DNA from: an uncultured Lachnospiraceae bacterium
Lineage (GTDB): Bacteria > Bacillota > Clostridia > Lachnospirales > Lachnospiraceae
Reading direction: 5' to 3'
DNA length: 64,000 nt
NCBI GenBank assembly: GCA_947589055.1
Contig: CANPZL010000003.1
Span: 1-64,000 of the forward strand
Position numbers and translations under genes: made by a program. Under the pieces are notes generated by a model. The model was not told where the DNA came from and searched no databases. It worked only from the letters and a program-made list of their open reading frames with translations. Position 1 is the stretch's first letter; every line of letters begins with the position of its first letter. Positions 15,158-28,021 of the stretch are shown piece after piece.

Positions 15158-15205
15158 ATAAACGTATAAACGTGAAAACGGATGATAAATGGCGTTGAAG
15201 GACGA

Positions 15206-16387
15206 ATGAGAAAAAACAATAAAAAAGTATTGCTGGTAACTACAGTGAGTGGCTTTTTACCGCAATTTGAATTAAACAATGTGAAACTGTTGCAGGAGTT
15301 AGGATATGAAGTGCATTATGCTTCAAATTTTAATCATCCTGCATATAAGAAGTCTTGTAATTTTGATGAGTTGGGTATTCGGACGCATCCGATCACCATT
15401 CGGAAATCACCGTTTTGTTTTTGGGAAAACCTGTGGGCATTCTTACAATTACGAGAGCTGATTTTACGATACGGTTTTTCCTTGATCCATTGTCATACAC
15501 CAATGGGCGGTGCATTAGCCAGATTGGCGGCGCTGACAGTTAAGAAAAAGCCTTGGGTGATATATACGACACACGGATTTCATTTTTATAAAGGTGCACC
15601 AATTTGGAATTGGCTCTTTTATCCGATTGAACGAATACTGGCTTGTTTTACAAATTGTTTGATTACGATCAATCATGAGGATCTGGCATATGCCAGAAGC
15701 TTTCGTTTAGGAAAAAATGGGTTTTCTGCATGGATTCCGGGCGAGGGAATTGATATGGAAACGTTCCATACTGGTACTGGGAAGGTTACAAAGGAACAGC
15801 TTGGTATTCCGGAAGAAGCATTATTTATCCTTTCAGTAGGCGAGCTGAACAAAAATAAAAATCATATTGCCATCTTGAAGGCTATGGAGCAGTTGAAGGA
15901 TCCGTTGATTTATTATGGAATATGTGGAACAGGAAAACATAAGTATAGAAAAAAACTGCTTGCTGCTGCAAAAAAATGTGGATTGGAAAACCGATTCCGT
16001 TTATTTGGTTATCAAGAGCAAGTTGAGAAATATCTGCAGGCAGCCGATGTTTTTGCCTTCCCGTCCCGACGGGAAGGATTGGGAATGGCGGCATTAGAGG
16101 CAATGGCGTCTGGTTGTCCGATTTTGGCAGCAGATAATAGAGGCACTAGAGAATTTATGAAGGACAAGTATACAGGAATTGTAGTACCGCCTGATGATAT
16201 TTCTGGTTTTGCAGATGCTATTTTGCAGTTGAAGAATAAGCAGTATCGCATGAAGCTCAGTCAAAACTGCCCAAAACGGGCAAGGCATTTTTGCAAAGAA
16301 GCCAGTCAAAAAAGGATGAGCAGGATATATCAGGAATGCGAGAAAAGGCTGTTGCTTAACGCTTCAAATCAAAAAAGAAATGGGTGA
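15206..16387 (+). CDS. Glycosyltransferase family 4 protein
   Basis: A 393-residue GT-B fold glycosyltransferase that transfers a sugar from an activated nucleotide donor to a lipid-linked or polymer acceptor at the inner face of the membrane. The C-terminal donor-binding domain shows FPSRREGLGMAALEAMASGC, whose E-x7-E pattern is typical of retaining GT4 enzymes. I prefer ATG 15206 with AAGGA three bases upstream; the in-frame ATG at 15182 has no ribosome site. First gene of the glycan locus; its stop overlaps the next gene by 8 bases. Donor and linkage are unknown. Confidence 0.88.
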   Translation: MRKNNKKVLLVTTVSGFLPQFELNNVKLLQELGYEVHYASNFNHPAYKKSCNFDELGIRTHPITIRKSPFCFWENLWAFLQLRELILRYGFSLIHCHTPMGGALARLAALTVKKKPWVIYTTHGFHFYKGAPIWNWLFYPIERILACFTNCLITINHEDLAYARSFRLGKNGFSAWIPGEGIDMETFHTGTGKVTKEQLGIPEEALFILSVGELNKNKNHIAILKAMEQLKDPLIYYGICGTGKHKYRKKLLAAAKKCGLENRFRLFGYQEQVEKYLQAADVFAFPSRREGLGMAALEAMASGCPILAADNRGTREFMKDKYTGIVVPPDDISGFADAILQLKNKQYRMKLSQNCPKRARHFCKEASQKRMSRIYQECEKRLLLNASNQKRNG

Positions 16388-17210
16388 GACAGTGGATACT
16401 CCATCAATATCAGTCATCATGTGCATACATATAAAAGAGAAAACAGATGAATTAAAATTAGCGATAGATTCCATTATAAACCAGAGTATGCAAGACTTTG
16501 AATTTATTATTTGTGATGATGCTTCAAATGCAGATACTTGGAAGGTGCTGATGGAATATCAGCAAGCGGATCACAGAATTCGCTTGTTGCAAAACAAAGA
16601 GGTAAAAGGTGTCGCCGCTTCCTTAAATCGTTGCATTGAAGCCGCTAAAGGGAAATACATTGCACGAATGGACGGAGATGATTTGTCGGATCCGAAGCGG
16701 TTAGAGATACAGTACGATTTTTTGGAGAAGCATTCCGAATATGCGTTTGTTGGTTGCAATGCAAAGCTATTAGAGGGTCAGGGGATCTGGGGAAGAAGAA
16801 AGGTGCCGGAATATCCGCAGGGAAAAGATTTTTTGGCATATTCTCCCTATATTCATCCGACTATTATGGGGCGTAGAGAGTTGTTTTTGCATGACGGTGG
16901 GTATCGTGCATATAAACATACTCTGCGATGTGAGGATTATGAATTCTTTATGCGGCAATTTTCCCAGGGCTATTATGGGTATAATGTTCAAAAATATTTA
17001 TACTATTACCGGGAAGATATTATTGGCTACCGTCGGCGGCAATACCGATATTGTATATCAGAAGCTTATATTCGATTACAGGGGTATTTAAGAATTGGCA
17101 TGTTCTGGAAAGGTGGATTTCTATATTGGCTAAAGCCATTGGTAGTGGGGTTGATACCTAAAAAATACTATTATCAACTGAAGCATCAAAGGATGGAAAA
17201 GACTACTTAG
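16380..17210 (+). CDS. Glycosyltransferase family 2 protein
   Basis: A 276-residue GT-A fold glycosyltransferase. SISVIMCIHIKEKTDEL opens the nucleotide-binding fold, FIICDDAS gives the uridine-binding acidic residues, and YIARMDGDDLSDP carries the metal-binding DxD-type motif. The family inverts stereochemistry when it transfers a sugar. Its start overlaps the GT4 stop, which suggests translational coupling. The C-terminus is basic and partly hydrophobic and may contact the membrane. Donor and acceptor are unknown. Confidence 0.88.
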   Translation: MGETVDTPSISVIMCIHIKEKTDELKLAIDSIINQSMQDFEFIICDDASNADTWKVLMEYQQADHRIRLLQNKEVKGVAASLNRCIEAAKGKYIARMDGDDLSDPKRLEIQYDFLEKHSEYAFVGCNAKLLEGQGIWGRRKVPEYPQGKDFLAYSPYIHPTIMGRRELFLHDGGYRAYKHTLRCEDYEFFMRQFSQGYYGYNVQKYLYYYREDIIGYRRRQYRYCISEAYIRLQGYLRIGMFWKGGFLYWLKPLVVGLIPKKYYYQLKHQRMEKTT

Positions 17211-17224
17211 AAGGGCAAAGAAAA

Positions 17225-18634
17225 ATGACAAGGCAAAAGCTTTACGATACCAAAATTTCAAAGAATCTTCCAGAGTATGCGCAAGCTGCCCGGAAAACTT
17301 ATTTTTGGGCGGAACAAAAGGGTAAACAGGAAGAAAAGAACGGAAGCTTCGTTCAGGCGTCAACCGTTTATTGCATTGCCACAACGGTATATGCGTATGT
17401 AGAATGGTTATTAGCTGATGCAAAAAATCGTAATCTGAAACGGTTGTATTTTTTGGCAAGAGATGGTTATCAGATGCTTGAAGTCGCACGCATTATTAAG
17501 AAACGACGAAACTATGATTTGGAACTGCGATATTTGTATTGTTCCCGTTATGCGCTTCAACTGCCGATTTTTCATAGTACGGAAGATTACTTGGATTATA
17601 TTTGCGTTGGCGGTAAGGAAGTTTTGCTCCGGCAGGTATTGGAGCGGGGAGGATTGACGCAGTTAGAAGTCGAGACTGTACTAAAAGAACAGGGAAAGAC
17701 AGGGGATATGCATCTGTCATATCAGGAGATACAAAACCTGAAGATGGAGTTAAAGAAAAGTGAATATTTTAAGGAATGTGTGTTTGATCATTCGGAAAAA
17801 GCGTATGATACTTGCATTGCATATTTAAAACAGGAGGGGCTTTTTGATTCTGAACCGTATGGAATTGTGGACAGCGGCTGGATTGGAACCATGCAGGCGG
17901 CATTACAGAGGCTGTTGAGGTTGGCAGGAAGCTCTACGGAATTAGAAGGGTATTACTTTGGCTTGTATGATGTTCCGGTTTATATGGATGAAAAGCGTTA
18001 TCATACGTTTTATTTTTCTGCCAATGGCGGATACAAAAGAAAGATGTGGTTTAACAATAATCTATTTGAAGTGATTTTTTCCGCTCCGGAAGGGACTACG
18101 CTGGGGTATGAAAAGGATGGCATGAAATATAAACCGATACTCGGATGCGAAAAAATGCAGAATGTACCGTGCGGCCAGCAGCTTCCGGTTATTCGGAAAT
18201 TTGCAGAGGAACTCTGTTTGCAGCCGGAAGTTATACAGGATACGGAAGCGTTGCGGCGAAGGCTGAGCCGGGGAATTGCGAAAGTATTAAAGGAATTTAT
18301 GATATACCCTTCCAGGGAAGAGGCGAAACAGTATGGTGATATAGAATTTACAGATCATGTGCTGGATCGTGAGGCTACAGTGCTTGCCGAGTCGTTAACC
18401 ATAAAGGAGTTAAGACGGAATCATTTGTTTTATCGTTATATTCAAAGGCGAAAGGGAAATTATGTGCCGACCAGTTATTGGCTGGCTGGAACCCTGATGC
18501 GGATTGAACTGAGGCCGATACAAGTGTCGTGGCACCGCTTTTGGATCTTGGCATATAAGTATGCTGTTTATATGAAAAAAGATATGATACGGGCAATCAA
18601 TAAAAGAAAAGCCGGAGTGAACGGATATGCGTAA
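17225..18634 (+). CDS. Stand-alone RDG/DxGW-domain protein (COG5610-like, without HAD part)
   Basis: A 469-residue protein without signal peptide or membrane helix. Residues 79-81 form RDG in LYFLARDGYQM, followed by YLYCSRYA, VDSGWIG (V215-G221) and a later NNNLFEVIFSAPEG block. The same ordered motifs occur in the C-terminal half of the HAD-fused protein at 21828 (LFLSRDGD, YVYWSRS, VDIGWAG, NIYWELLLASP). I recognise the architecture as resembling COG5610, whose C-terminal domain has no function known to me. It sits between GT2 and the ABC permease, overlapping the permease start by 8 bases. A role in glycan assembly or modification is inferred from position. Confidence 0.6.
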   Translation: MTRQKLYDTKISKNLPEYAQAARKTYFWAEQKGKQEEKNGSFVQASTVYCIATTVYAYVEWLLADAKNRNLKRLYFLARDGYQMLEVARIIKKRRNYDLELRYLYCSRYALQLPIFHSTEDYLDYICVGGKEVLLRQVLERGGLTQLEVETVLKEQGKTGDMHLSYQEIQNLKMELKKSEYFKECVFDHSEKAYDTCIAYLKQEGLFDSEPYGIVDSGWIGTMQAALQRLLRLAGSSTELEGYYFGLYDVPVYMDEKRYHTFYFSANGGYKRKMWFNNNLFEVIFSAPEGTTLGYEKDGMKYKPILGCEKMQNVPCGQQLPVIRKFAEELCLQPEVIQDTEALRRRLSRGIAKVLKEFMIYPSREEAKQYGDIEFTDHVLDREATVLAESLTIKELRRNHLFYRYIQRRKGNYVPTSYWLAGTLMRIELRPIQVSWHRFWILAYKYAVYMKKDMIRAINKRKAGVNGYA

Positions 18635-19409
18635 GGAAAAGAAATCAAAAAAGAGAAAACAATATATTTTTATTCTTCGTGAATTAACCGGAAGAGAATT
18701 CAAGCGGAAATATGCCAGAAGTTTTCTGGGAATTATATGGAGTGTACTAAATCCATTGTTATATATGACGGTTATGGCAATGGTGTTTACTTATATCTTC
18801 AGTAATTCCATAGAAAAATATCCGGTATATCTTATGTGCGGCCAGATTACCTATTCCCTGTTTTCGGGGATTACTAATACCTCGATGGGAGCATTGGTTG
18901 ATAATAAAAATATGCTGATAAAAGTTAAATTTCCAAAACTGATTTTTCCCCTGTCCAGAGGAATGATTGCGTTAGTAAACTTTTTTTATAGTTTGATCGC
19001 TTTAGTGATTGTTATGATTTTTTTTCAGGTAAAACCAAGCTTTTATATGTTATTGGTGCCTATTGATATATTGTTTTTGTTTTTGTTTAGTATGGGGGTC
19101 GGGTATATATTATCGGTGCTTTATGTATTTTTTGATGATGTGAAATACCTGTATTCCGTTTTTTTGACCCTGTTAATGTATTGTTCGGCAATATTCTATT
19201 CAATTAACCGGTTATCGCCGATGATGCAGACAGTAGTAGCAACAAATCCAATTTATAACTATGTCACTATTTTCCGTAATTGCATGATTTATTCCACAAT
19301 GCCGAGCGGCGTGGAATTCTATCAGATGGCGGCTTGGGGATTGGGAATGTATATAATCGGTACTTATGTATTTTGGAAATCGCAGAATAATATTATGCAA
19401 AAACTGTAA
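18627..19409 (+). CDS. ABC-2 type polysaccharide export permease (Wzm/TagG-like)
   Basis: A 260-residue integral membrane protein with six hydrophobic segments. REFKRKYARSFLGIIWSVLNP is the typical N-terminal interfacial stretch of the polysaccharide/teichoic-acid export permeases. It would dimerise and pair with the ATPase encoded next to move a lipid-linked polymer to the outer face of the membrane. The ATG overlaps the preceding stop. No Wzx flippase or Wzy polymerase is present in the locus, which agrees with an ABC-dependent export route. Confidence 0.9.
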   Translation: MRKEKKSKKRKQYIFILRELTGREFKRKYARSFLGIIWSVLNPLLYMTVMAMVFTYIFSNSIEKYPVYLMCGQITYSLFSGITNTSMGALVDNKNMLIKVKFPKLIFPLSRGMIALVNFFYSLIALVIVMIFFQVKPSFYMLLVPIDILFLFLFSMGVGYILSVLYVFFDDVKYLYSVFLTLLMYCSAIFYSINRLSPMMQTVVATNPIYNYVTIFRNCMIYSTMPSGVEFYQMAAWGLGMYIIGTYVFWKSQNNIMQKL

Positions 19410-19427
19410 GGCGAAAAGGAGTAGAAC

Positions 19428-20489
19428 ATGGATAATTTGAATCTGCCAGAGCAGTTAATGATTATTTTGATCATTCTGTTTTTAATAGATGTATCCGGTA
19501 TCCTGTTATATATCTATCTGACCGGGAAAAAACAAACACGAAGCAAGTCTGAAAAGATGAGCCGTGATATAACCGGTCGACAGAAGGAAGAGTACGAAGA
19601 TACAGAAGATTTTGAAGATCCGAAGGAAGAGACAGCAAGTACAGAAGAACAGCGGTCAGTAGAAAAAGAAGTTTTTACTGGGCAAAGTGATGTGGAGATA
19701 AATTCTTTACTGACAGATATTGAGGAAAGTCTTTGGAAAAGTCCGCAGATCCCGGTGATCCAGGTGAAAAATGTCACAATGGAGTTTAAGGTGGCCACCA
19801 TTCAAACATCCGGAATAAAAGAGTTGTTGATCATGAAATTTAAGAGACAAAATACTTTCCGTAAGTTAAAAGCGCTGGATCAGATCAACTTTACTATTCA
19901 AAGAGGAGAAATTGTAGGAATTATAGGAACGAATGGTTCTGGTAAAAGTACGCTTTTAAAGATTATATCTGGCGCTCTGAAGCCGACTTTGGGTAAGGTG
20001 AAGGTGGATAACAGCAAGGTGCAATTACTTACACTCGGCACTGGTTTTGATATGGAATTGACGGGTCGGGAAAATATTTATTTGAACGGGGCGTTAATCG
20101 GATACAGTAAGGATTATATTGAACGACATTTTGATGAAATTGTTTCTTTCGCAGAGTTAGAAGATTTTATAGATGAAAAATTGAGGAATTATTCGTCAGG
20201 TATGGTGTCCCGTTTGGGTTTTGCGATCGCAACCAGCGGAAAAGCGGCAGAGATTTTAATTTTAGATGAAGTATTGGCAGTTGGAGATATCAATTTTCAA
20301 AAAAAGAGTATGAAACGTATTCAGGAAATGATACATGGCGGCTCAACAGTGATAATTGTATCGCATTCGATCGGCGTTATAACAAAGCATTGTACAAGGG
20401 CAATCTGGATTGAAAAAGGAAAACTAATGGCGGATGGAAATCCGGAAAAAGTATGTGAAAAATACGTAAAAATGCAGAATAACACATGA
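19428..20489 (+). CDS. Membrane-tethered ABC transporter ATPase for polysaccharide export (Wzt/TagH-like)
   Basis: A 353-residue ATPase. Walker A is GTNGSGKST at 167-175, the signature is NYSSGMVSRLGFA and Walker B is ILILDEVLAVGD. Unusually, residues about 10-32 form a hydrophobic helix, followed by a highly acidic linker of about 60 residues, before the ATPase domain begins near residue 110. Wzt-type ATPases usually begin directly with the nucleotide-binding domain and may carry a C-terminal sugar-binding domain, which is absent here. The start is firm: AAGGAG lies seven bases upstream. It pairs with the permease 18 bases upstream. Confidence 0.9.
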   Translation: MDNLNLPEQLMIILIILFLIDVSGILLYIYLTGKKQTRSKSEKMSRDITGRQKEEYEDTEDFEDPKEETASTEEQRSVEKEVFTGQSDVEINSLLTDIEESLWKSPQIPVIQVKNVTMEFKVATIQTSGIKELLIMKFKRQNTFRKLKALDQINFTIQRGEIVGIIGTNGSGKSTLLKIISGALKPTLGKVKVDNSKVQLLTLGTGFDMELTGRENIYLNGALIGYSKDYIERHFDEIVSFAELEDFIDEKLRNYSSGMVSRLGFAIATSGKAAEILILDEVLAVGDINFQKKSMKRIQEMIHGGSTVIIVSHSIGVITKHCTRAIWIEKGKLMADGNPEKVCEKYVKMQNNT

Positions 20490-20596
20490 TAATTAGAATA
20501 AAAAATAAGGATTTTGAACGGATAACGATAAAACAGGGTATTTTAACATAAGAATAGTGAAAATGACTAGTTAAAGGAAATGGAAGGAGAAAAAAG

Positions 20597-21712
20597 ATGG
20601 AATATGATTATCTGATCGTGGGAGCTGGCTTATTTGGAGCTGTATTTGCTTATGAAGCAAAAAAGGCCGGAAAAAAAGTATTCGTAGTGGAGCAGCGGTC
20701 CCATATAGGAGGTAATATTTATACGGAAGAAATACAAGGCATTCAGGTGCATAAATATGGAGCGCATATTTTTCATACGAATAATACAGAGATATGGAAT
20801 TATGTAAATCAATTTGCTGAATTTAATCGGTTTACAAACTCGCCGGTAGCCAATTATAAAGGAGAACTGTATTCGCTTCCGTTTAATATGTGGACATTTA
20901 ATAAAATGTGGGGCTGCTTAACGCCGGAGGAAGCAAAAGCAAAGATTGAAAAGCAGCGTATCGAAGCAGGAATTACCAAACCGCAGAACTTGGAAGAACA
21001 GGCGATCAGTCTGGTAGGGAAGGATATTTATGAAAAACTGGTAAAGGGATATACTGAAAAGCAATGGGGCAGGCCCTGCGATCAGCTGCCATCGTTTATT
21101 ATTAAAAGACTACCCGTGCGGTTTACATTTGATAACAATTACTTTAATGCCCGTTATCAAGGGATTCCCATTGGCGGATATACAAAAATGATTCAAAATA
21201 TGCTGGAAGGAATTGAGGTTCGCTTGAATGTGAATTATTTGGAAGAAAAGGAAACGCTCGATTCCCTTGCAGAGAAAGTGATATATACAGGTCCGATTGA
21301 TGAATATTTTCAATATCGTTTAGGAGCATTGGAATATCGGTCTGTTCGATTCGAAACGGAGATTTTAGATGTGCCTAATTATCAGGGAAATGCTGTTGTC
21401 AATTATACAGACAGTGAGACGCCCTGGACCCGGATTATTGAACATAAATGGTTTGATTTTGGTGAGCAGGAAAAGACGGTTATCAGCAGAGAATATTCCT
21501 CTGAATGGCAGACCGGCGGGGAACCATATTATCCGATTAACAATGAGAAAAATGAAGAACTTTATCAGGAGTATAAAGCATTAGCGCTTTCTGAAACAAA
21601 AGCATTGTTTGGAGGAAGACTAGGAGAATATAAGTATTATGATATGGATCAGGTGATTGAAAAGGCATTAGCACTGGTAAAACAGGAAATCGAGTGCAGG
21701 GATATGAGATAA
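20597..21712 (+). CDS. glf: UDP-galactopyranose mutase
   Basis: A 371-residue FAD enzyme that converts UDP-galactopyranose to UDP-galactofuranose. The N-terminal FAD motif is IVGAGLFGAVFA, followed by GGNIYTEEIQGIQVHKYGAHIFHT, which continues in family-typical form, and RLPVRFTFDNNYF. Length is normal. The ribosome site GGAAGGAG is strong. Together with galE in the same locus it supplies galactofuranose, so the exported glycan probably contains that sugar. It follows the ABC ATPase after 107 bases in which I see no gene or terminator. Confidence 0.95.
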   Translation: MEYDYLIVGAGLFGAVFAYEAKKAGKKVFVVEQRSHIGGNIYTEEIQGIQVHKYGAHIFHTNNTEIWNYVNQFAEFNRFTNSPVANYKGELYSLPFNMWTFNKMWGCLTPEEAKAKIEKQRIEAGITKPQNLEEQAISLVGKDIYEKLVKGYTEKQWGRPCDQLPSFIIKRLPVRFTFDNNYFNARYQGIPIGGYTKMIQNMLEGIEVRLNVNYLEEKETLDSLAEKVIYTGPIDEYFQYRLGALEYRSVRFETEILDVPNYQGNAVVNYTDSETPWTRIIEHKWFDFGEQEKTVISREYSSEWQTGGEPYYPINNEKNEELYQEYKALALSETKALFGGRLGEYKYYDMDQVIEKALALVKQEIECRDMR

Positions 21713-21827
21713 TATTTGAAAGAGGGAAAGTGCTGTAGTCGATTTTAGCTTTATATTTTGATAGACCTATGGTATGCTCTTTATAGTTTCTTTTTATATA
21801 TAGATTATTTTATCAATTAGTGTGAAT

Positions 21828-23912
21828 ATGAGTATGAGTATGAAGGCTGGTAGTGTAAGCGTGAGGACAAAGCTGTATCATTTTTTAGTTAATCGTCATA
21901 ATGGCATTCGCGAACGTTATCATCAGATGCATGATGGAACGTCGGGTATAAAAAAAGTGCTTTCGTGGGTGTATTTATTATGGTTGAATTTTTGTTATTA
22001 TTTTCTGTTCTTACGTTTTTTAGGCAAAACGAGACCGGTTAAATTTTTGGAAGAAAAAAATCTACCTTTAGAAATTAGCGAATCGGAAATGCATACTAAG
22101 AAACTGAAAAGAATTGAGGAATATGTAGAATTACTTTCACGGTACGATGTGATTTCTTTTGATATTTTTGATACGCTTCTTTTCAGACCATTTTCAGAAC
22201 CTGAAGATTTGTTTTACTTTCTTTCCTTGAAACTTGGTATGCTGGACTTTCAACGAATCCGGAAAGAACAAGAAATTTTAGCAAGGCAGGATTGTTATAA
22301 ACAAAAGGGACATTATGAAGTTACCTTTCAGGAAATCTGGAACCGCATCGAACGGGAAACCGGGAAATCAGCGGAAGAAGGTATGCAGATGGAGCAAGAG
22401 TTAGAGCAACAATTTTGTTATGCAAATCCTTTTATGAAAGAAGTATTTCAAGCTTTGCAAAAACAGGGGAAAGAGATAATCATTATTTCAGATATGTATT
22501 TGCCGAAAGCCTTTTTGCAGAAACTTTTAGAACAAAATGGATTTACCTGTATAAAACGGTTATATGTTTCCTGTGAATATGGTGTCAGTAAATATGACGG
22601 TGGACTTTACCGAAAGATCAAAGAAGATTTTGAAAATACAGGTTCGATCGTTCATGTAGGTGATAATGAATATAGTGATGGCAGACAAGCAAAGAATAAT
22701 GGCTTTAATAGTGTCCTTTATCCTAATGTCAATCAAATGGCACTGTCATATAGATCTTATGATCTATCCCCTATGATCGGTGGCGCTTATCGGGGAATTG
22801 TAGATAATCATTTGTATCAAGGACTGCGTTCTTATTCTCTGGAATACGAGTATGGTTTTATTTATGGCGGATTGTTTGTGTTAGGGTATTGTCATTTTAT
22901 TTATGAATACTGTAGAGATAATCAGATTACAAAGATATTGTTTTTATCTAGGGATGGTGATATATTAAAGCAGGTTTACGATAAGCTATATCCGGAAGCA
23001 AATACAGAATATGTATATTGGTCAAGATCTATTGCTACAAAGTTAATGGCAGAGCATGATAGATATGATTATATTCGCAGATTTTTATATCAAAAAGTAA
23101 ATAAAAATATTTCTATCAATAAGATATTATCATCTATGGAACTTGACTTTTTACAGGAAAAACTGATGAATTGGCATGATAACAGCAAAAATTCTTTGTT
23201 ATCAGGAACGGATCTATTAACAGATAAAAATGTAGAGATATTAAAACAATTTTTGTTATCTCATTTTGATGCAATTATTGATGCATATCATGAACAAAAT
23301 GAGGCGGCAAAATGCTATTATTCCAAGATATTAGATGGAGAAAAAAAGGCAGCAGCTGTTGACATTGGCTGGGCAGGTAGTGGTGCGATTTCACTTTCAT
23401 ATCTTGTAGAACGGGTCTGGAAACTGCCTTGTGAAATCACTGGATTGATTGCAGGTACAAATACCATAAATAGTCCGGAACCGTATGCAAGCGAAAGTTT
23501 CTTACAGGCGGGGAAATTAAGTGCATATCTGTTTTCGCAAGCGGACAATCGAGATGTGATGAAAAACCATGATTGCAACATTGATGATAATATTTATTGG
23601 GAACTGCTTTTAGCTTCTCCAACTAAATCGTTTATCGGATTTGCATTTGATAAAGATACATGGGATTCAGGAAAAAAGGAAATTCAATTTCGGTTTGGAA
23701 ACGAGGAACCGAACCAGAAGGGAATGAAAGAAATCCAAAAGGGTATCTTAGATTTTGTAGAAGAATATGAAAATCATTTTAAGGCGTTTCCTTATATGAT
23801 GAATATTAGCGGCAGAGATGCTTATGCGCCTATGCTGGTGGCATTCAGCCATAATCGCAGGTTTTTAAAAGTACTTAGAAAACGTTTTTCTCCTGTGATC
23901 GATATAGGATAA
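21828..23912 (+). CDS. HAD-domain/RDG-DxGW-domain fusion protein (COG5610-like)
   Basis: A 694-residue two-part protein. The N-terminal part has a HAD motif, FDIFDTLLF (D112, D115, T116), with IIISDMYLPK and VGDNEYSDG further on. The C-terminal half carries LFLSRDGD, YVYWSRS, VDIGWAG and NIYWELLLASP, the same order as in the stand-alone protein at 17225. HAD phosphatases release phosphate from sugars or lipids; the second domain is uncharacterised to me. No good ribosome site exists: GTG 21822 and ATGs 21828, 21834 and 21840 are all possible, and I chose 21828 arbitrarily among them. The preceding 109 bases show no gene. Confidence 0.7.
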   Translation: MSMSMKAGSVSVRTKLYHFLVNRHNGIRERYHQMHDGTSGIKKVLSWVYLLWLNFCYYFLFLRFLGKTRPVKFLEEKNLPLEISESEMHTKKLKRIEEYVELLSRYDVISFDIFDTLLFRPFSEPEDLFYFLSLKLGMLDFQRIRKEQEILARQDCYKQKGHYEVTFQEIWNRIERETGKSAEEGMQMEQELEQQFCYANPFMKEVFQALQKQGKEIIIISDMYLPKAFLQKLLEQNGFTCIKRLYVSCEYGVSKYDGGLYRKIKEDFENTGSIVHVGDNEYSDGRQAKNNGFNSVLYPNVNQMALSYRSYDLSPMIGGAYRGIVDNHLYQGLRSYSLEYEYGFIYGGLFVLGYCHFIYEYCRDNQITKILFLSRDGDILKQVYDKLYPEANTEYVYWSRSIATKLMAEHDRYDYIRRFLYQKVNKNISINKILSSMELDFLQEKLMNWHDNSKNSLLSGTDLLTDKNVEILKQFLLSHFDAIIDAYHEQNEAAKCYYSKILDGEKKAAAVDIGWAGSGAISLSYLVERVWKLPCEITGLIAGTNTINSPEPYASESFLQAGKLSAYLFSQADNRDVMKNHDCNIDDNIYWELLLASPTKSFIGFAFDKDTWDSGKKEIQFRFGNEEPNQKGMKEIQKGILDFVEEYENHFKAFPYMMNISGRDAYAPMLVAFSHNRRFLKVLRKRFSPVIDIG

Positions 23913-23939
23913 ATAAATGAAAGAAATGAGGCGGAAACG

Positions 23940-24962
23940 ATGGCAATTTTAGTGACTGGAGGAGCAGGCTATATAGGAAGCCATGCTTGTGTGGAACTGG
24001 TAAAAGCAGGCTATGACGTTGTAATAATGGATAATCTATCGAATGCCAAAATGGAAGTCATAAAGCGGGTCGAAATGCTTACGAAGAAATCCATTCCATT
24101 TTACAAAGTGGATTTATTAGATCAGGAAGGATTAGAAAAGATTTTTACAAAGGAAACCATTACCGCAGTTATGCATTTTGCAGGAGTAAAGGCAGTGGCG
24201 GAATCCGTTCGGAATCCTTTGAAGTATTATCAAAATAATGTGACAGGCACTTTGATATTATGCAACGTCATGCAAAAATTCGGAGTGAAAAATATCATAT
24301 TCAGTTCTTCTGCAACCGTTTATGGAAATCCTGAGTTTGTTCCCATTACAGAGGACTGTCCACTGGGTGAGATTGCCAGCCCTTATGGAAGGACAAAGGC
24401 GATGCTGGAACAGATTTTAATGGACCTGCATACAGCCGATCCCGAATGGAATGTGGTATTACTGCGTTATTTTAATCCCATCGGCGCACATGAAAGTGGT
24501 ATGATAGGGGAAGATCCGAAAGGGATTCCGAATAATCTGATCCCATATATTTCTCAGGTTGCGATCGGCAAACAGGATTATTTGAAAGTATTTGGAAATG
24601 ATTATCCAACGCCAGATGGCACAGGCGTGAGAGATTATATCCACGTTGTAGATTTAGTAAAAGGACATGTTAAGGCATTAAAGAAAATAGAACCGGGTTC
24701 CGGTGTTAGCATTTTCAATCTGGGAACCGGAAAGGGATATAGCGTGCTGGAGGTTTTGCACGCATATGAAAAGGCTTGTGGGAAAACGCTTCCATATGTG
24801 ATAGAATCGAGAAGAGAAGGCGATGTGGCTTCTTATTATTGCAATCCTTTGAAAGCCGAACAGGAATTGGGATGGAAGGCGGAAAAGGACTTGAAGGAAA
24901 TGTGTATAGACTCATGGAAATGGCAATGTATGAATCCAAATGGCTATGAAGAAATGGATTGA
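23940..24962 (+). CDS. galE: UDP-glucose 4-epimerase
   Basis: A 340-residue short-chain dehydrogenase-type enzyme that interconverts UDP-glucose and UDP-galactose with bound NAD. VTGGAGYIGSHACVELVKAG is the Rossmann NAD motif, SSSATVYG supplies the catalytic serine, and the YGRTK catalytic Tyr/Lys pair follows. Length is typical. GAGGCGGA precedes ATG. It supplies UDP-galactose to the galactopyranose mutase encoded upstream. UDP-GlcNAc epimerisation is possible. Confidence 0.95.
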   Translation: MAILVTGGAGYIGSHACVELVKAGYDVVIMDNLSNAKMEVIKRVEMLTKKSIPFYKVDLLDQEGLEKIFTKETITAVMHFAGVKAVAESVRNPLKYYQNNVTGTLILCNVMQKFGVKNIIFSSSATVYGNPEFVPITEDCPLGEIASPYGRTKAMLEQILMDLHTADPEWNVVLLRYFNPIGAHESGMIGEDPKGIPNNLIPYISQVAIGKQDYLKVFGNDYPTPDGTGVRDYIHVVDLVKGHVKALKKIEPGSGVSIFNLGTGKGYSVLEVLHAYEKACGKTLPYVIESRREGDVASYYCNPLKAEQELGWKAEKDLKEMCIDSWKWQCMNPNGYEEMD

Positions 24963-25006
24963 CAGGTATCTGGTTAAGGATTGTTATACGAAAGTAAGGA
25001 CAGAAA

Positions 25007-26317
25007 ATGAAACATAGAGCATTTAGTGTTTGGGAAAGTCTGATAATTTTTATATTGCTTGGGGCGGAATCCTGTTATTTCTTATTGCTTCCATTTACGG
25101 TTGAATATTCAGGATATGGTCTGCTTGGCGGATATTTGTTATTGCTGCTTGTATATCCAATATCCAGGAAGCAAAAAACCAATATTTCAAAACGAGAAAC
25201 GTACCTTACGATTTTTTTTCGTTGGTTAGTGCTTAATCTTGCAACCATAGCTCTCATTTTAAATCAAGAGGAGATTATTTTAAAAAGAGATATACTGTTT
25301 CGTTTTTTATTGTTAGCAGGAATTGGAGGATTCTCTCTTTATTTGCTTTTGTTTATAGAACGTTTATATTTGAAGTTCAAAAGAAAAGGAGAAATCAAAA
25401 GCTTAGTTATTTATGGAAGAGCGGATGAGGCCATTTGTAAGAATATAGATAAGAAATCGGAAAAGGGTTTTAAATTCCATGATTCCGCTTTTTGTTATTT
25501 TATCTCTGCCGAAGAAAGACAGGACAAGCTGGAAAAACTGCTGTTGCAATATGATCGGGCTTATATTTTAGATATTCCTGCACAAAGGCGGAATGAATTG
25601 TTGAAGTTGTGTTTTAAAACCGAAAAGCCGGTATACTGTATATCAAAATTGTCAGATATTATGATCCAGGGAGGGTATACGGTAAAGGATGAAGATAAAG
25701 CCTTTTTTTGCTGTGAAAAATACCGTTTGGATAAAAGCGAGGAATTTGTTAAACGGTGCTTTGATCTGCTGGGTTCTTGTCTTGCATTAGTAATTTTGTC
25801 ACCATTATTTCTTATTATTGCTTTGTGTATAAAACTGGAGGACGGAGGTTCCGTAATCTATAAGCAAATACGGTGTACGAAGGATAATAAGGAATTTTGG
25901 ATTTACAAATTCCGGAGTATGGTCGTAGATGCCGAACCGGAGGGTGCGATGCTTGCGGAAGAAAGTGATAGACGGATAACGAAGGTAGGATCGATTTTGC
26001 GGAATACCAAGTTAGATGAGCTTCCCCAGTTAGTGAATATCCTACGGGGAGATATGAGCTTTGTAGGCCCCAGACCGGAACGTCCGGAATTGATTAGCAG
26101 GATTGTAGATGAGGTTCCGGAATTCTCTTTTCGCACATATGTAAAAGCCGGTTTGACCGGTTATGCGCAAGTACAGGGGAATTATAGTACGCTGCCGTTA
26201 GATAAACTTAAGTGGGATTTGATGTATATCAATCAGTATTCCTTTTTTCTGGATTTGAAGATTATGTTTATGACACCGTTCGTTATTTTTATGAAGAACA
26301 ATCGGGAGGATAAGTAG
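25007..26317 (+). CDS. Polyprenyl-phosphate sugar-1-phosphate transferase (WbaP/WcaJ type)
   Basis: A 436-residue polytopic membrane enzyme. The N-terminal third has about four hydrophobic helices, a degenerate middle domain follows, and from about residue 245 lies the bacterial sugar transferase domain (KRCFDLLGSCLALVILSPLF, IYKFRSMVVDAE, GDMSFVGPRPERPE). It starts glycan assembly by moving a sugar phosphate, often galactose or GlcNAc, from UDP-sugar to undecaprenyl phosphate. In this locus galactose is plausible because glf and galE are present. It ends directly before the next gene's ATG. Confidence 0.9.
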   Translation: MKHRAFSVWESLIIFILLGAESCYFLLLPFTVEYSGYGLLGGYLLLLLVYPISRKQKTNISKRETYLTIFFRWLVLNLATIALILNQEEIILKRDILFRFLLLAGIGGFSLYLLLFIERLYLKFKRKGEIKSLVIYGRADEAICKNIDKKSEKGFKFHDSAFCYFISAEERQDKLEKLLLQYDRAYILDIPAQRRNELLKLCFKTEKPVYCISKLSDIMIQGGYTVKDEDKAFFCCEKYRLDKSEEFVKRCFDLLGSCLALVILSPLFLIIALCIKLEDGGSVIYKQIRCTKDNKEFWIYKFRSMVVDAEPEGAMLAEESDRRITKVGSILRNTKLDELPQLVNILRGDMSFVGPRPERPELISRIVDEVPEFSFRTYVKAGLTGYAQVQGNYSTLPLDKLKWDLMYINQYSFFLDLKIMFMTPFVIFMKNNREDK

Positions 26318-28021
26318 ATGGTGGACAGCAAGGAAGATGGAAAAGACAAACTTATCGTATGGAAAAAAATATTGCTGATAGAAATCATTGTATTTGAAGT
26401 ATTGTATATTGCAGGCGCTATTTTCTTTTCCAATCATTTTTTGCTGAATTCTGAAATCAATGGTGTTGATGTATCCCTTATGACAGCGGATCAGGCGCAG
26501 GAGACACTTGAAACCGCATTGCAGAATTATAGACTGGAAATACAGGAACGGGAAGGGAAAATAGAATATATCACAGGAGCAGATATTGATTTGCAGTTTG
26601 AGTTGACTGGCACATCAGAAGAAGTGATGAATCGTCAGACTATTTTTTTCTGGTTTGTGAATATCTTTCACGAGAAGACATATACGCTTGCTTCAGAAGT
26701 GTCTTTTAATGAAAATAAGCTGAAGAAACAGGTGCAAGAACTAAACGGTATCAATAAAACCACCAGTACAGCTCCCATAGAGCCGCAGATTGTTCGAGGG
26801 GAAGAAGGGTTTGTTGTAAAAGAGGGGATTCCCGGCAATCAGTTATCTCCGGATGAAACGCTGGCAGCGATTCGGATCGGCATCTCTAATTTGATGCTTT
26901 ATGTCAATATGGAAAAAGCAAACTGCTATCGGCAGCTACAGTATCAGGTGGATTCGCCCGCTGTGCAAGCTGCGGTAAGACAGTTGAATCATATCTTAAA
27001 AATGAAAATTACATACCGGCTGGGAAACCAGACGGAAGAATTAGTGGGAGATAAAATCATTGAATGGGTATCGGTTTCAGAGGAATATGTAATTTCTGTC
27101 GATCAGGAAGCTGTAAAAGAGTATGTGGATGAAATAAAAACGATCTATCAGGAAAATGGTAGTCAGATTAAATTCCAAACAGCCACGGGAGAAACAGCCG
27201 GATTGAATTCTTATGTAACCGATTCCGGGGAAGCGTTATTCGATTCCGAATACTTATCAAATCTGATTTTAGATGATGAAAACGGTGATACTACGGATTT
27301 TTTATGGGAACCATCCGGGAATATGGCTGTTGGTGATACGTATATTGAAATCAATGCTTCAGAACAGCATTTATATGGGTATCAAAATGGAAGGCTTGTC
27401 GTGGAGGCAGATATTGATCTCAAGCTTCCAAGAGGGAACCCGGTTCCCGTGGGAATATATACGATTCGGGAGAAAGGGGTTTCTGAAACATTAAACGGCA
27501 AAAATTGGAGGAAAACACCGGTAGAGAACTGGATCGCTTTTGATGGAGGAACCGCCTTGTACAGCGAAGGACAAGCCGCTGCATCAGATCCCGGCAGATA
27601 TACGGCTTGTGGAATAGAACTAGAGACAGCACAAGCAGCTGCCTTATATGAGAATTATGAAATTGGGGATTTGGTTGTCATATATACGGAAGATTCTTTT
27701 GAAACAGATTCAAATGGAAATCCTACAGACAATAATACAAGAAATCCTGCCCCGGATAATCCTGCAAATAATACAGACGCCTCCGAAGATACATCGACGG
27801 AACCGCCTACAGAAAATCCGACGGAACAATCGCCTCAGCAGCCGGTTGAACCGCAACCGCAGCAACCGAGTGAACCGCAGCCACAGCAGCCTACAGAGAC
27901 TCCAGGCGTACAGCCCACGGAGAGCCCAACAGAACCTACTACGCAACAGCCATCTGAGGAACCCACCGATACGCCAACCGAAGGATCGACTGAGGCGTCG
28001 ACCGAGATTCCAACCATATAG
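26318..28021 (+). CDS. Membrane-anchored YkuD-like protein with altered catalytic motif and Pro/Thr/Glu/Gln-rich tail
   Basis: A 567-residue protein with one membrane helix near residues 22-45 and an extracellular body. A PG_binding_4-like region comes first (INGVDVSLMTADQAQETLE), then from about 345 a YkuD-like domain (INASEQHLYGYQNGRLV, TIREKGV). Active L,D-transpeptidases carry HG and SHGC-x-R. Here the positions read FDGG (D409) and YTACGIE (C431): the cysteine remains but the histidines and arginine are missing. The last 90 residues are a PQQP/PTE-repeat tail. GGGAGG precedes the ATG, directly after the sugar transferase stop. It may bind or decorate peptidoglycan without cross-linking it. 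Confidence 0.75.
   Translation: MVDSKEDGKDKLIVWKKILLIEIIVFEVLYIAGAIFFSNHFLLNSEINGVDVSLMTADQAQETLETALQNYRLEIQEREGKIEYITGADIDLQFELTGTSEEVMNRQTIFFWFVNIFHEKTYTLASEVSFNENKLKKQVQELNGINKTTSTAPIEPQIVRGEEGFVVKEGIPGNQLSPDETLAAIRIGISNLMLYVNMEKANCYRQLQYQVDSPAVQAAVRQLNHILKMKITYRLGNQTEELVGDKIIEWVSVSEEYVISVDQEAVKEYVDEIKTIYQENGSQIKFQTATGETAGLNSYVTDSGEALFDSEYLSNLILDDENGDTTDFLWEPSGNMAVGDTYIEINASEQHLYGYQNGRLVVEADIDLKLPRGNPVPVGIYTIREKGVSETLNGKNWRKTPVENWIAFDGGTALYSEGQAAASDPGRYTACGIELETAQAAALYENYEIGDLVVIYTEDSFETDSNGNPTDNNTRNPAPDNPANNTDASEDTSTEPPTENPTEQSPQQPVEPQPQQPSEPQPQQPTETPGVQPTESPTEPTTQQPSEEPTDTPTEGSTEASTEIPTI

Follow-up and report, generated by a model that had tools for sequence, protein, structure and literature searches.

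The open reading frame at positions 26318-28021 (+ strand) of the window, by which is meant the whole 64,000-nucleotide stretch of Lachnospiraceae DNA that was analysed, appears from its sequence to encode a selectively degraded YkuD pseudoenzyme, a protein that has lost its catalytic residues from a predicted fold that is otherwise kept. The product is probably membrane-anchored and would attach to peptidoglycan without cross-linking it, in a wall-docking or scaffold role. YkuD proteins are usually annotated as cross-linking enzymes, and a Pfam match would mis-annotate this copy, though almost nothing of the active site remains.

The frame opens with ATG and runs without internal stops for 567 amino acids, preceded by the motif GGGAGG (26304-26309, +), a likely ribosome-binding site that lies within the 3' end of the upstream sugar transferase gene. 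An earlier note, made from the DNA letters, had described a YkuD-like protein with a membrane helix, a peptidoglycan-binding-like region and a Pro/Gln/Thr/Glu tail, and each of these elements was recovered on the + strand: an N-terminal membrane helix in the AlphaFold2 model (residues 9-37; 26342-26428), PG_binding_4 (PF12229; 41.6 bits for the whole protein in two stretches, curated Pfam cut-off 22.1), with its best stretch at residues 123-189 (26684-26884), a YkuD domain at residues 341-455 (27338-27682; PF03734, 31.0 bits against a curated cut-off of 23.4) and a Pro/Thr/Glu/Gln-rich tail, read directly off the translation, at about residues 463-567 (27704-28018). The tail-coding part of the gene (27728-28021) has a G+C content of 0.55, compared with 0.41 for the remainder. 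In the AlphaFold2 model, a structure prediction that the earlier note had called for and that was run on residues 1-470 with 76 sequences (pLDDT 86.3, pTM 0.70), the protein still has the YkuD beta-sandwich, and the former active-site loop (residues 419-429) is modelled with a pLDDT below 50. The top matches among solved structures are entries for Ldtfm of Enterococcus faecium (PDB 6fj1, 1zat, 2hkl), which is also the best PDB sequence match (6fj1: Z 17.2, rmsd 7.5, 230 aligned); these are followed by other L,D-transpeptidases, mostly over the YkuD part and with rmsd values of about 2-3. The likeness to Ldtfm extends to the two-domain arrangement over residues 215-459, including the YkuD fold; however, Ldtfm keeps His-Asp and SHGC, both of which are absent from the window copy.

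Alignment with YkuD domains, also proposed in the earlier note, upheld its reading of the catalytic motifs in part. Within the former active-site stretch (residues 409-432; 27542-27613, +), the column of the catalytic His, as defined by intact relatives, is residue 415 and holds Tyr, and the His of the HD motif of active L,D-transpeptidases is absent, as had been supposed. In contrast, FDGG, which had been taken for the expected HG site, aligns with the ordinary FNGG of intact relatives, preceding the His site. Nor is the catalytic cysteine retained, as had been claimed for C431: in two different MAFFT alignments the SHGC tetrad of relatives falls in a four-residue gap after G432, which is itself the conserved Gly ahead of SHGC, so that the [ST]xGC motif of active L,D-transpeptidases is missing and C431 occupies a variable column. 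A gap-free count backwards from the YENY helix likewise puts G432, not C431, in the Cys slot (before Ile433); C431 is therefore not the catalytic cysteine, an assignment that the alignment register rules out. The Arg after Cys (SHGCxR) is indeed lacking, as had been noted, but is not to be expected in this branch; because SHGCIN is the reading in Ldtfm of E. faecium as well as in the genome's own intact paralog, this residue has no diagnostic value here, and its loss was discarded as a sign of inactivity.

The loss is concentrated in the active site. Among 92 columns that are at least 85% conserved in 75 relatives from genome contigs, 16 lie within residues 409-432 and 76 elsewhere; the window copy keeps 2/16 of the former and 51/76 of the latter (Fisher p 1.2e-4), compared with 13-14/16 and 49-56/76, respectively, for the seven intact copies of the genus given the same treatment. 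Conservation away from the active site thus matches that of intact copies, and at the level of sequence this pattern speaks for a fold maintained without catalysis rather than for simple decay. The non-cross-linking role suggested in the earlier note is thus well supported: the His, the SHGC tetrad and their surroundings have disappeared, and the remainder of the protein is conserved to the same degree as its intact counterparts.

Such a protein appears to be rare, and its physiological role is putative. Of 196 distinct YkuD ends from all loci surveyed, a count in which one YkuD (L002, SLGC) belongs to a different type and which derives from loci picked by similarity and by profile at E 1e-3, a procedure that heavily decayed copies would escape, 194 keep both the His and [ST]xGC; the exceptions are the window copy and L260. 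The family search scored at most three candidates per genome and listed part of its matches, and part of those listed were retrieved for the survey. The second exception (L260:3158-5581, G148:C12) is an 807-residue protein with a YkuD domain that lacks the His and the Cys and reads GFYDASW...GSTTGSV. It resembles the window copy in the loss of the His (to Tyr) and of SHGC, but differs from it in its position in the tree, in having no adjoining glycan cluster, in a tetrad that is altered rather than deleted and in keeping 12/16 of the active-site columns; its six close homologues, in the other six genomes of its genus, are intact. Because the window copy and L260 are both without an active site, the loss would seem to have occurred at least twice in one bacterial family, on each occasion in a single one of the species searched. 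The family is probably the Lachnospiraceae, since proteins from genomes G196 and G034 match those of named Lachnospiraceae identically over the part compared. Keyword searches of the literature found no YkuD pseudoenzyme, and one may still be in print.

The same genome carries an intact paralog on another contig (C56), a protein of 659 amino acids that is 36% identical to the window copy, shares its domains and tail and reads FNGGIGLHDATW...GSHGCINL; unlike the window copy it has an intact active site, and its surroundings, as far as they were read, hold no glycan cluster. A third YkuD protein, on contig C9, is of a different type. In a tree built with the active-site columns removed, the window copy falls within the clade of its genus (8 rows, SH-aLRT 100) but outside the seven intact copies (95; fork drawn open within), and this common ancestry suggests, within the limits of a sequence tree, that the duplication took place in the genus ancestor or earlier. 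The eight genus genomes searched yielded no intact ortholog of the window copy, and a scan of genome contigs with the window protein alone as query returned no match. Outside the genus, the best match of the family search stood at 31% identity in the first row, with 24-32% among the matches listed, and a conserved pseudo-YkuD family was rejected on the grounds of the missing ortholog and of these low identities.

A truncated relic of 98 amino acids in another species of the genus (L071:7962-8258, G003:C93) has the window copy as its best match (score 182, 32/67 identical, versus at most 155 for the nine intact copies compared). This relic is what would be expected if the window copy were a redundant duplicate in decay, having lost catalysis first and being on its way out as in the sister species. 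In agreement with decay, no second full YkuD copy was seen in the other genomes of the genus, several of which are incomplete, and the active-site loss is confined to one species, as it is in G148 for L260; that the eight genus genomes searched lack an intact ortholog and that sister species have lost the window-type copy or hold a relic also count against a pseudoenzyme with a role. However, the frame is intact over all 567 codons and conservation outside the active site (51/76) is within the range of the intact copies, and decay is considered unlikely. It is distinctly improbable that the dead copy is a regulatory decoy, competing or pairing with the C56 protein and so tuning cross-linking: an intact paralog of the same architecture does occur in the same genome, but contact between the two proteins is without support and their genes lie on different contigs. 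The cysteine near the former active site and the poorly modelled loop at residues 419-429 could be read as traces of an enzyme of changed chemistry using Cys431, yet the variable column of C431, the filling of the slot before Ile433 by Gly432 and the loss of both motif His residues make this very hard to sustain, and likewise disfavor the changed substrate that the earlier note had entertained. That the active-site stretch reflects an error of assembly or sequencing is scarcely credible, even for a draft genome in 66 contigs, as 14/16 columns differ by in-frame changes together with a 12-base gap, and no hidden motif was found in the other five frames of 27500-27720, which also rules out a frameshift.

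The preferred explanation, a membrane-anchored pseudoenzyme with a non-catalytic role at the wall, begins with an old paralog of the Ldtfm-type L,D-transpeptidase of the genus, in which the entire catalytic site disappeared, through a His-to-Tyr change and deletion of SHGC, and the anchor, PG_binding_4 region, YkuD beta-sandwich and tail were retained. The anchored protein would then hold peptidoglycan through PG_binding_4, and perhaps through the emptied YkuD face, and be unable to join stems. Judged from its domains, peptidoglycan binding is plausible, and we infer that the protein is made and is located outside the membrane. A precedent for a non-enzymatic YkuD role is LdtJ of Acinetobacter baumannii, the C390S mutant of which did not lose fitness (PMC12548408). 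The activity of LdtJ is reported to be dispensable for fitness or shape, but LdtJ is an active enzyme inactivated by mutation (PMC12548408), and the window copy is naturally without an active site. The LytM domain of SpoIIQ, with a substituted active site, is described as a wall-enzyme fold serving localisation, and is similar in that respect but belongs to another fold and another process (PMC3533761). With a natural pseudo-transpeptidase next to an intact paralog in a single genome, the wall-binding function of this class could be told apart from cross-linking.

The gene directly follows that of an initiating sugar transferase (25007-26317, +; TIGR03025, 311 bits, cut-off 295.55), the stop codon of which (TAG, 26315-26317) abuts the ATG at 26318, a direct coupling that the earlier note had recognized. 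It is the last gene of a glycan cluster spanning 15182-28021, the rest of which (15182-26317, +) matches, by Pfam and other profiles, glycosyltransferases (two in the cluster), an ABC-2 permease and ATPase, UDP-galactopyranose mutase, a HAD-domain protein, GalE and the sugar transferase. By its gene content and distribution this would be a species-restricted glycan cluster of the ABC-transporter/galactofuranose type: upstream of topB it is absent in 6/6 same-genus genomes readable there, and an Hsp20 gene occurs on the same stretch as topB in G002, G006 and G007. The G+C content of the upstream glycan genes (15182-26317) is 0.34-0.42, versus 0.42-0.46 in the flanking genes measured; the tail lifts that of the pseudo-YkuD gene to 0.43. 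Promoter-like sites numbered 36 where 43.3 were expected, and terminator-like sites 13 where 8.3 were expected.

The gene order is real, yet it is not a conserved partnership. A sugar transferase adjoins only 1/140 YkuD loci (L106-L185 and L215-L274, with flanks of up to 4-5 kb), which is about the level of chance, estimated at about 1% given some three sugar transferase genes per 2.5 Mb genome; a conserved YkuD-sugar transferase linkage is ruled out at this frequency, and the recurrent adjacency by which glycan-attachment machinery would be recognized was not found, the YkuD at the one locus being intact. In that locus (L253:287-3177, G128:C64) a full-length sugar transferase gene is directly followed by that of a PG_binding_4-type YkuD, in the gene order of the window.

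As a weaker extension of the preferred explanation, the protein might act on behalf of the glycan made by its putative operon, perhaps by keeping the polymer or a ligase near wall sites, with attachment proper carried out by LCP ligases, two LCP-type genes being present elsewhere in the genome. More specifically, the YkuD fold could be a wall receptor, encoded in the glycan operon, that docks the galactofuranose-type glycan exported by the ABC transporter, or the ligase for that glycan, onto peptidoglycan, a proposal that we regard as doubtful. It is the position in the operon, with an adjacency that is not conserved, that hints at a role in attaching glycan to the wall; the absence of the cluster from the same place in the six readable genomes of the genus and the single adjacency among 140 loci count against it, as they do against the preferred explanation. 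Within the cluster, a 469-residue protein without a Pfam match (17225-18634) contains a stretch, LARDG, that resembles LSRDG of the HAD-domain protein at 21822-23912.
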